Shown here one piece after another: positions 1-36,308 of a stretch of 64,000 nucleotides of DNA (within the stretch, counting starts at the first letter, position 1; each line of letters opens with the position of its first letter). The stretch is from Methanobrevibacter millerae. GTDB taxonomy: Archaea; Methanobacteriota; Methanobacteria; Methanobacteriales; Methanobacteriaceae. The stretch covers positions 1,410,001-1,474,000 of the forward strand of contig NZ_CP011266.1 of NCBI RefSeq assembly GCF_001477655.1, given 5' to 3'. Made by a program: the position numbers and the translations under genes. Below the pieces are notes generated by a model. It saw only the letters and a list, made by a program, of their open reading frames with translations. It was not told the origin of the DNA and did no database searches.

Positions 1-755
1 CTTTGCCTGCAAAATTAATCATGTTCAATATTGATTTGTAGTATTCATTGAAGACCTTGGTGGATTCATCCACAACGGCCATGAACTTCTCGTTTGTAAT
101 CTGTGGAGGAGTGAACCTTTTGTTGATAAGTTCCCTTGTTTGTCTTTCCTTTTCATTATACTCCATTTTCAATTCCCTGGCCTTCAATGCATACCCCATA
201 TAATCCGGAGAGTTGAATGCATTCTGATTCGGACGACTTTCTTGAGTCCTGACAGGTTGCTGAACAGGTTTTGAAGGTTGCTGAACAGGTTTTTTCGCAG
301 AAGTCCTCTTATGAATGAAATAGCCTATGAGAAATGCAGGTACTGCTATGACAATAGAAACTACAGTAGATGCAAATGCCTGTCCGGAATATTGGCCGGG
401 AAGAGCTGAACCCAAGCCTGAAATCAGACCCAGCACAATAATTAACAAAGTAATCAGTTTGGTTTTTGACAGTCTGAACCTATCATCCTCATGCCAGTAA
501 AGGAGAAAATGCACAATATCCTCACCGGCATTTCCGCTGTAATAGCTGGAATCTATATCCATTATTGAATGAATAAAAAAGCCTATAATAAATGTGGGCA
601 CTGCAAAAACCAATGCGATGACAAGTGCAGTGCCAAACTGCCAGTCCTGAAGGCCATAGATAAAGGATACGACAAACACCAGCAAGGTCAGAAACTTTGT
701 CCTTGAAAATACATATCTGTTGTTTTCCTTCCAATACAATAAAACGTTTCCCATT
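1..755 (-). CDS. Membrane protein with duplicated TM module (partial, runs off left edge)
   Basis: An open frame starts at ATG 755 and stays open to base 1, so the C-terminus lies outside the window; about 251 residues are visible. The N-terminal half is an internal duplication: a short LLYWKE/LLYWHE-D-R-F-T/SKTK motif followed by two hydrophobic helices occurs twice (about residues 5-60 and 85-145), each ending in a phrase like GFFIHS or GYFIHK. After that come a P/Q-rich linker with a repeated KPVQQP motif and a charged, probably helical cytoplasmic region. No enzyme motif is visible and I do not recognise the family. Four membrane spans and a soluble C-terminal domain are inferred. Confidence 0.75.
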
Positions 756-34953: not shown

Positions 34954-34969
34954 TTTAGTCATACCTAAA
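34954..34969. promoter_or_regulatory. Upstream operator of RNA copy A (DtxR-like palindrome)
   Basis: TTTAGTCATACCTAAA, an imperfect version of the palindrome at 35414-35429. It ends 13 bases before the TATA box, the same spacing as in copy B. It resembles the TTAGG...CCTAA half-sites of DtxR/IdeR-type iron regulators. Confidence 0.6.
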
Positions 34970-34982
34970 AAAAATCAAAATA

Positions 34983-34990
34983 TTTATATA
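34983..34990 (+). promoter_or_regulatory. TATA box of RNA copy A
   Basis: TTTATATA with purine-rich sequence before it, followed by CTA and then the block TTACTACATTATTAAATAGTG that is shared with copy B. The predicted transcription start is about 35010-35014. Confidence 0.65.
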
Positions 34991-35010
34991 CTAGAAATTA
35001 CTACATTATT

Positions 35011-35217
35011 AAATAGTGATGTAAATTTAGGACAACCTAAAAAACATTGCTTTTACATTATTAGTAAAGACTAATACAATCTCCAAAATTAAAACACAAT
35101 TGAATTAGTTTTTTCCACAATTTTCTAATTCAAAACGAAAAAATTATCTGCCAAAGATTTTTTCAAAAAAGTCATAGGCGTTTGAACCAAAAACGCCTTT
35201 ATTATCTCTTATTTTTT
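35011..35217 (+). ncRNA. Structured small RNA, copy A
   Basis: No protein frame runs through it. Copy A and copy B align along their whole length and share promoter, structure and end. Hairpins in order: ATTAGT/ACTAAT near 35060-35075; TTGAATTAG (35100-35108) with CTAATTCAA (35125-35133); GAAAAAAT (35137-35144) with ATTTTTTC (35157-35164) enclosing the loop TATCTGCCAA; AGGCGTTT (35176-35183) with AAACGCCT (35191-35198), followed by a T-rich tail. The last two stems differ between copies by paired changes. The unpaired TACAATCTCCAAAATTA (35075-35091) is identical in both. Ends are estimated. A second operator (35026-35041) lies within the 5' end. Confidence 0.75.
35026..35041. promoter_or_regulatory. 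Downstream operator of RNA copy A
   Basis: TTTAGGACAACCTAAA lies just after the predicted transcription start of copy A. Together with 34954-34969 it brackets the promoter, a usual arrangement for repression. Copy B lacks this second site. Confidence 0.6.
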
Positions 35218-35224
35218 ACGAATC

Positions 35225-35413
35225 TTTTAATTGAAATTAAACAATTATTTTATCATAAGATATTTTTTCACTACATCCATTACACTGCCAATTTTATTGA
35301 GCAGGTGATCTGAAAACTTCTTTCATATCTAAATTACAGATAGATTTAAATATGATGCTATACCATTATTATATAACAATAGTTATTTTTTAGGCAGTAA
35401 TTATAACAATATA
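35225..35413. other. Spacer between the two RNA copies
   Basis: AT-rich, with no gene and no similarity between copies. A single TTAGG half-site is at about 35390. Confidence 0.4.
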
Positions 35414-35429
35414 TTTAGGTATACCTAAA
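35414..35429. promoter_or_regulatory. Operator of RNA copy B (perfect DtxR-like palindrome)
   Basis: TTTAGGTATACCTAAA, a perfect 16-bp palindrome ending 13 bases before TATA. It is the best match of four related sites in the window (34954, 35026, 35414, and a degenerate one at 8241). Confidence 0.65.
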
Positions 35430-35442
35430 AAATAACGAAACA

Positions 35443-35450
35443 TTTATATA
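35443..35450 (+). promoter_or_regulatory. TATA box of RNA copy B
   Basis: TTTATATA preceded by CGAAACA (B-recognition-like). Predicted start is about 35470-35474, in the same sequence context as copy A. Confidence 0.65.
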
Positions 35451-35470
35451 CTACTTCTTACTACATTATT

Positions 35471-35686
35471 AAATAGTGATGTGAAAAGAAAAAAAAACAC
35501 ATTGCTTAAAAACATTATTAGTCAATAAAAACTAATACAATCTCCAAAATTAAATTACTTGAATTAGTTTTCCACAATTTTCTAATTCAAAAAAAACGGA
35601 AAAATTTATCTGCCAAAATTTTTCCACAAATATCTCAACTAGGTGTTTATTAAACCGATAAACACCTATTATTATCTCTTGTTTTC
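35471..35686 (+). ncRNA. Structured small RNA, copy B
   Basis: Paralogue of 35011-35217. Hairpins: ATTAGT/ACTAAT near 35516-35536; TTGAATTAG/CTAATTCAA near 35559-35590; GGAAAAATT (35598-35606) with AATTTTTCC (35617-35625) around the same loop TATCTGCCAA; TAGGTGTTTAT (35640-35650) with ATAAACACCTA (35658-35668). The end ATTATTATCTCTTGTTTT matches copy A. Relative to copy A, the terminal stem changes a C-G to a T-A pair (GGCG/CGCC versus GGTG/CACC) and the third stem changes A-T to G-C. This is the signature of a conserved RNA fold. It carries TACAATCTCCAAAATTA at 35536-35552. Confidence 0.75.
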
Positions 35687-35739
35687 TAAAAATAATTAAA
35701 AATAGCTAAATAAAAATAAAAAATAAAAAAAGATCAAAA

Positions 35740-36285
35740 TTATTTATAATTTTGAGCTCTTTGTTCGAAATGTGCTTTAGGATATCCGCATACTGGACAT
35801 TTTTCAGGTGCATTAGGACCTTTGAAAATGAATCCACAGTTTTCACATTTCCATTCAACTTCTTCATCTTTAGCAAAGACAGTTTCATTTTCAACGGTGT
35901 CAAGTAAAGTTCTGTATCTTTCTTCATGTTCTTTTTCGATTGCACCTACTTTTTCAAACAAGAAAGCGATTTTAGCAAAACCTTCTTCACGAGCAGTTTC
36001 AGCAAACTCTTTGTACATTGCAGTCCATTCTTCGTTTTCACCGTCAGCTGCTGCGTTTAAGTTTTCAATAGTGTCAGGAATTTCTTCATCATGTAAAAGT
36101 TTATACCAGATTTTAGCATGTTCCCTTTCGTTTTTGGAAGTTTCCATAAAAATGTCATGGATTTGAACATAACCTTCTTCTTTAGCTTTTGCAGCAAAGT
36201 ATTGATACTTGGTGTGAGCTTGGGACTCACCAGCAAAAGCGGCTTGCAAATTTGCTTCAGTTTTTGTACCTTTTAAATCAGTCAT
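35740..36285 (-). CDS. rbr: Rubrerythrin (copy 1)
   Basis: A 181-residue peroxide-detoxifying non-heme iron protein of the cytoplasm. The N-terminal ferritin-like diiron domain contains [26 protein letters not shown] and [13 protein letters not shown] with the iron-binding ExxH motifs. The C-terminal rubredoxin-like domain has CENCGFIF and [14 protein letters not shown] 36285 is chosen because GGAGATG lies 7 bases upstream; a start five codons earlier precedes that site. The ribosome binding region (plus strand TACATCTCCAATTAA) resembles the TACAATCTCCAAAATTA segment of the adjacent RNAs with small gaps. Confidence 0.95.
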
Positions 36286-36287
36286 AA

Positions 36288-36308
36288 TATACATCTCCAA
36301 TTAATATA
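36288..36308 (-). promoter_or_regulatory. rbr copy 1 ribosome binding site with RNA complementarity
   Basis: The GGAGAT ribosome binding site lies in a stretch whose antisense matches the small RNAs over ATCTCCA-(AA)-ATTAA with one further single-base gap. Eight contiguous bases (TTGGAGAT) could pair. Confidence 0.35.

Follow-up and report, generated by a model that had tools for sequence, protein, structure and literature searches.

Two copies of a structured RNA in the 64-kb window (the whole stretch of Methanobrevibacter millerae DNA analysed here) probably represent an archaeal iron-sparing antisense RNA that works like FsrA, IsrR and RyhB and is unrelated to them by sequence, a reading to which we assign a probability of roughly 0.7. 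The RNA family, its structure, its promoter and operator layout and an operator common to feoB and dtxR were computed, as was a complementarity that for three genes is stronger in the RNA-bearing clade; from there we infer expression of the RNAs, binding of a repressor, translational repression and iron as the signal. When iron is plentiful, a DtxR/IdeR-type sensor bound 5' of the TATA box would repress the ~200 nt RNAs, and in most copies it would also bind just past their start. Under iron shortage the repressor would leave, the RNAs would be made, and their linker UACAAUCUCCAAAAU would pair with the Shine-Dalgarno regions of iron-rich or iron-related mRNAs and block their translation, with the C-containing loops of other hairpins perhaps pairing too. 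The predicted targets are FdhA, Mmp3 (MCR-activation protein), a NifU-like protein and rubrerythrin, with HypC and a polyferredoxin as less certain candidates, and the outcome would be an iron-sparing response that touches a central step in the making of methane. Base-pairing to Shine-Dalgarno regions is a mechanism added here to a preliminary description of the locus, which had offered none.

Table 1. Features of the two-copy locus and of the neighbouring rubrerythrin gene, in window coordinates; RNA starts are predictions placed ~26 bases after the TATA centre (archaeal start spacing).
Feature	Positions	Strand	Sequence	Basis or remark
DtxR-type operator A1	34954-34969	.	TTTAGTCATACCTAAA	5' of copy A TATA box; pattern scan
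TATA box of copy A	34983-34990	+	TTTATATA	begins 13 bases past operator A1
sRNA copy A	35013-35215	+		ends inferred from start rule and T-rich tract at 3' end
DtxR-type operator A2	35026-35041	.	TTTAGGACAACCTAAA	past predicted start, within 5' hairpin of copy A
Unpaired conserved linker of copy A	35073-35089	+	TACAATCTCCAAAATTA	proposed antisense seed; alignment and fold
DtxR-type operator B1	35414-35429	.	TTTAGGTATACCTAAA	5' of copy B TATA box; pattern scan
TATA box of copy B	35443-35450	+	TTTATATA	sequence; begins 13 bases past operator B1
sRNA copy B	35473-35690	+		ends inferred; 5' hairpin stem kept, internal operator lost
Unpaired conserved linker of copy B	35534-35550	+	TACAATCTCCAAAATTA	proposed antisense seed; alignment and fold
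Rubrerythrin gene	35740-36285	-		convergent neighbour of copy B, predicted target
Rubrerythrin ribosome-binding site	36286-36300	-	TTGGAGATGTATATT	complementary to linker

The two blocks, already described as paralogous, align with 82% mean column identity (about 80%), and the spacing of exactly 13 bases between palindrome and TATA box claimed for both is borne out at 34983 and 35443. Folded from their predicted starts, copies A and B give z-scores of -5.1 and -7.0, with no shuffled sequence folding equally well, and they adopt the same five hairpins and a long unpaired linker. Four matching hairpins had been counted before and all four are present, the number rising to five with the addition of a 5' stem (GUGAUGU/ACAUUGC). 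It is at the tip of this 5' hairpin that the second operator ascribed to copy A is found (A2, 35026-35041); in copy B the operator is absent from the hairpin and the stem is retained. The unpaired segment and the loop reported as identical in both copies are TACAATCTCCAAAATTA and TATCTGCCAA. The compensatory changes first seen between A and B extend to the family, where 20 of 33 pairs vary on both sides among 79 distinct homologues. Covariation among these 79 sequences is strong: it scores 0.215, whereas shuffles score 0.110 and slid controls no more than 0.080, and 93% of cells pair. The alignment used for this had been fitted to the model and favours it; an alignment not fitted to the structure gave the same picture. 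A conserved small protein frame, named in the preliminary description as another way to account for the conservation, was not found in 77 copies, where the longest ATG frame has a median of 11 codons, and a protein-coding explanation was rejected. Searching the window against Rfam returned zero matches at the gathering threshold (the best was a 16-bit chance match, E 3.6), and a tRNA search found none. Structure, covariation and the absence of a frame fit a stand-alone structured non-coding RNA, its transcript being predicted.

Gut and rumen Methanobrevibacter appear to carry several copies of this previously undescribed small RNA. Four are present in the home genome, a single contig of 2,543,538 bases: A, B, C1:723845 and C1:797402. 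By DNA search, 63 of the genus's 67 genomes contain between one and six. A covariance model of the kind proposed at the outset, built from 23 sequences, matched all 16 sampled genomes of the genus; under strict filters, with which weak relatives could be missed, it had no match in 64 genomes belonging to 16 further genera in the family. Scanning the genomes of 84,980 species for the linker together with the second hairpin turned up 46 loci, all titled Methanobrevibacter and mostly from metagenome assemblies, many of them from ruminants. The RNA directly adjoins feoB in several relatives and rubrerythrin in others. Some copies (L026, L032 and L029 near 2547 (-)) are truncated or rearranged, with the 5' or 3' part replaced by other sequence. 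Many genomes also show inverted pairs of RNA copies ~7-11 kb apart (G062:C4 118299/126054, G007:C1 449640/456497, G023:C88 19525/27548), with feoB beside one member in the case looked at, and recombination could flip the segment between them. A conserved gene of ~223 aa (MFDG..LKNYL...) lies divergently beside the RNA, upstream, at L009, L011, L014 and other loci; by eye its product may be a QueG-type 4Fe-4S protein, and its first 90 residues matched no Pfam family. Upstream of copy B (window 35373-35386) and of most homologues there is also a palindrome, ATAAC-N4-GTTAT, which reads ATAACACGTGTTAT or ATAACAATTGTTAT in relatives (many loci, e.g. L009, L019, L022) and lies near the promoter of a neighbouring gene; it may be the site of another regulator.

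The segment UACAAUCUCCAAAAU is the sole nearly invariant unpaired part of the RNA and constitutes an extended anti-Shine-Dalgarno sequence. When the genome was searched for its complement, fdhA and further genes for iron proteins had matches at their ribosome-binding sites. When the 19 plausible genes of the whole genome with TTGGAGAT before the ATG were ranked by pairing energy, six of the top 11 and none of the other eight were iron-related, these six encoding a flavoprotein, a HypC-like protein, FdhA, a polyferredoxin, rubrerythrin and an aldo/keto reductase with a ferredoxin domain, where the HypC identity and the iron-sulfur nature of the flavoprotein were read from sequence rather than taken from a database result. 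Among 306 genes starting with ATG, sampled without bias from 20 stretches plus the window, mmp3 (identified by NCBIfam) had the strongest linker pairing, the NifU-like gene and rubrerythrin were in the top five, and a pairing of -14 was reached by only three genes, mmp3 among them. Part of this complementarity is built in, because GGAG-type Shine-Dalgarno sequences are common: the 75 sampled genes containing GGAG already average -8.7. Across the genus, the exact 11-base linker complement followed by ATG had 27 matches, mostly chance occurrences inside genes and one of them fdhA, and a narrow Shine-Dalgarno pattern had six, one of them the NifU-like gene. No significant relation between iron-sulfur motifs and pairing energy was seen in a sample of 374 genes, ten of which carried a motif (p = 0.14), and the other loops, scanned singly, returned mixed genes with no clear theme. 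Since pairing to an anti-Shine-Dalgarno sequence is easily obtained by chance, the case for the targets rests on sites that the clade conserves and that are lost beyond it.

Within the genus, fdhA pairs in 19 of 19 species read, with a mean duplex energy of -14.7 kcal/mol, and the site TTTTGGAGATTATAAAATG, or one near it, is kept in all 19 while the flanking sequence drifts. For mmp3, GGAGATTGTATG and strong pairing are kept in 17 of 20 species (mean over the 20, -16.7). The NifU-like gene pairs in 10 of 10 read (mean -13.3), through AGGAGATTG or a similar sequence in one group and AATTTTGGAGA in another, that is, with the same linker in different registers. Ten rubrerythrin loci range from -11.3 to -15.3 (mean -13.3), and most of them keep GGAGATGTATATTATG or a sequence near it. 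The controls lie lower, with a mean of -7.3 for a carB-like gene and mostly about -9.3 for feoB. The aldo/keto reductase was rejected as a conserved target, its site being variable (mean -9.0), and the KorD and flavoprotein sites were seen in the home genome only. Some copies in smithii-type genomes have a diverged linker, and the mmp3 site is weak (-10.7) in two such genomes, one of which retains a full linker copy. At L051 (G006) and L063 (G002), both smithii-type, the linkers lack ACAAU and the mmp3 site lacks ATTGT, with G002 keeping one full linker; the two losses are possibly a co-divergence. A second rubrerythrin gene (window 1-488, minus strand) has a start region, GGAGATGATAATATGGCAGAT, complementary to the RNA tail AUUAUUAUCUCU and the loop AUCUGCCA, and is the best tail match in the gene sample.

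In genera that lack the RNA, the mean for fdhA is -11.0 against -14.7 in the genus, that for rubrerythrin, which there reads AGGTGATTATA, is -8.1 against -13.3, and that for mmp3 is -5.5, comparisons between related species that are not phylogenetically independent, so that their p-values are descriptive and overstate the case. The FdhA protein is ~90% identical in the nearest genus read; TTATGGAGATTATAAA replaces TTTTGGAGATTATAAA at its site and the outer pairs are lost. In that genus mmp3 has AAAGAGGCAAGCCT and no real pairing (-3 to -4), and another RNA-less genus retains a partial mmp3 site (-10.7 to -12.9). The NifU-like site gives no clean separation and is equally complementary in several genomes of sister genera. 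Conserved complementarity to the iron-related mRNAs of fdhA, mmp3 and rubrerythrin, weaker or absent outside the genus, is what would be expected of targets, as far as sequences can tell. The same sites bear on an unlikely alternative, that of a DtxR- or iron-controlled RNA that binds a protein or the ribosome instead of particular mRNAs, its repeated CU-rich loops occupying an RNA-binding protein or 30S subunits. There is a resemblance between the linker and the anti-Shine-Dalgarno end of 16S rRNA, and separate unpaired CU-containing loops (UCUCC, UUUCCACA, CUGCC and CUCUCCUC) recur across copies, as in sponge-type RNAs; however, the linker is conserved well past CUCC, and its flanks are the very bases to which the sites of fdhA and mmp3 correspond in the RNA-bearing clade.

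The promoters bear on the signal. A1, A2 and B1 are the only perfect TTTAG-N6-CTAAA sites in the window. Upstream sequence was long enough in 77 copies. In 72 of them an operator (up to two mismatches) precedes the TATA box by 11-13 bases, an arrangement seen in 2 of 1540 shuffled sequences, and 63 of the 72 copies have a second operator 32-36 bases past the TATA box, just after the predicted start. The genome has 13 perfect TTTAGG-N4-CCTAAA sites, including those of sRNA copies A, B, C and D. A cluster of four (one perfect, three with a single mismatch) lies upstream of feoB, and a single-mismatch operator stands 71 bases before the start of the sole DtxR/IdeR-family gene (near C1:947 kb), whose product has a FeoA domain. 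Others of the 13 perfect sites are near a P-type ATPase gene, an hdrC-like Fe-S gene, a polyferredoxin/mobB pair and the fdhC-fdhA/fmdE region, the regulated gene being uncertain for several of them. The palindromes had been assigned to the DtxR/IdeR type, and the TTAGG/CCTAA repeat is indeed common to the RNA copies, feoB and dtxR. An operator common to the RNAs and feoB points to iron, and sites at the RNAs, feoB and dtxR are what an iron regulon looks like, with repressor binding predicted; judged by its sequence, the RNA promoter would be under an iron-sensing repressor. The original proposal of metal-controlled small RNAs of no known family holds in all the parts that can be tested in silico, the control itself being predicted.

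That the controlling metal is another one, such as manganese or nickel, and that the RNA remodels a different metal economy, seems less probable still. DtxR-family proteins include manganese sensors and one operator precedes the P-type ATPase gene, but feoB and the genome's one DtxR gene, with its FeoA domain, both have operators in front of them, and the predicted targets are Fe-S or iron-linked proteins. Several operators per copy and several copies per genome would also suit DNA repeats that titrate the repressor, the RNA being incidental; this we consider very improbable, given the covariation of the RNA, the conservation of its TATA box and of its T-rich end, and the retention of the hairpin in copies which, like B, have lost the second operator. 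Least credible is that the RNA serves a neighbouring gene as its leader, riboswitch or attenuator. The copies are structured and adjoin metal genes, but each has a promoter and a T-rich end to itself; what comes after A is B, what comes after B is a convergent gene, and the neighbours differ among copies and species.

RyhB and the PrrF RNAs are Fur controlled. We know of no sequence relationship between IsrR and the archaeal RNA, and the Rfam search revealed none. IsrR of Staphylococcus is a structured RNA of 174 nt, distributed genus-wide, whose iron-repressed gene has two operators at its promoter and which pairs with Shine-Dalgarno regions through several unpaired C-rich regions, fdhA being a target (PMC9410917). 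Of the bacterial iron-sparing RNAs it is the one whose design the archaeal RNA matches best, with two operators, C-rich unpaired regions, a genus-wide distribution and, on the archaeal side as predictions, Shine-Dalgarno targets and fdhA; unlike the bacterial, Fur-controlled IsrR, it is multi-copy, with a TATA promoter, a DtxR-type operator and mmp3 as a predicted target. In Bacillus subtilis the Fur-controlled FsrA, which needs the FbpABC chaperones, pairs a C-rich motif to Shine-Dalgarno regions in an iron-sparing response (PMC9410917), a likeness to the predicted use of the C-containing motif here in which we see no homology. RyhB of enterobacteria and PrrF1/PrrF2 of Pseudomonas depend on Hfq (PMC9410917); they resemble the archaeal RNA in iron-sparing base-pairing, predicted in our case, and PrrF also in having paralogues, and no Rfam model matches the archaeal RNA. 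A parallel in repressor class (predicted here) is MrsI of Mycobacterium tuberculosis, which responds to iron and is predicted to be controlled by the DtxR-family repressor IdeR (PMC9410917), although MrsI is bacterial and no homology is seen. RyhB, PrrF, MrsI, FsrA and IsrR themselves have neither synteny nor sequence homology in common (PMC9410917). Among archaea, Idr1 and Idr2 of Halobacterium are DtxR-family regulators of iron genes and belong to the same repressor class, whereas the available part of that publication mentions no small RNA target for them (PMC11349517).

Several groups of bacteria are known to have iron-sparing RNAs, and no archaeal one was found in the literature searched. 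We give even odds to a fuller claim: that this is the first small RNA of the iron-sparing type in archaea, present genus-wide in multiple copies and acting as an antisense RNA under a DtxR-type repressor; that at low iron it reduces formate dehydrogenase and the activation complex of methyl-coenzyme M reductase, and so couples methane production by the main gut and rumen methanogens directly to their iron supply; and that it arose independently of RyhB, FsrA and IsrR with the same design. Mmp3 is a subunit of that activation complex, which contains three large iron-sulfur clusters (PMC12176620); we did not find it described as a cluster-bearing subunit, though it is part of an iron-sulfur complex. 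Because the predicted sites are short and exact, the idea is directly testable. If true, the RNA would be the archaeal side of a repeated invention, with a target gene name, fdhA, that is the same as in Staphylococcus, and it would provide, through mmp3, a link between iron and methanogenesis at the RNA level.
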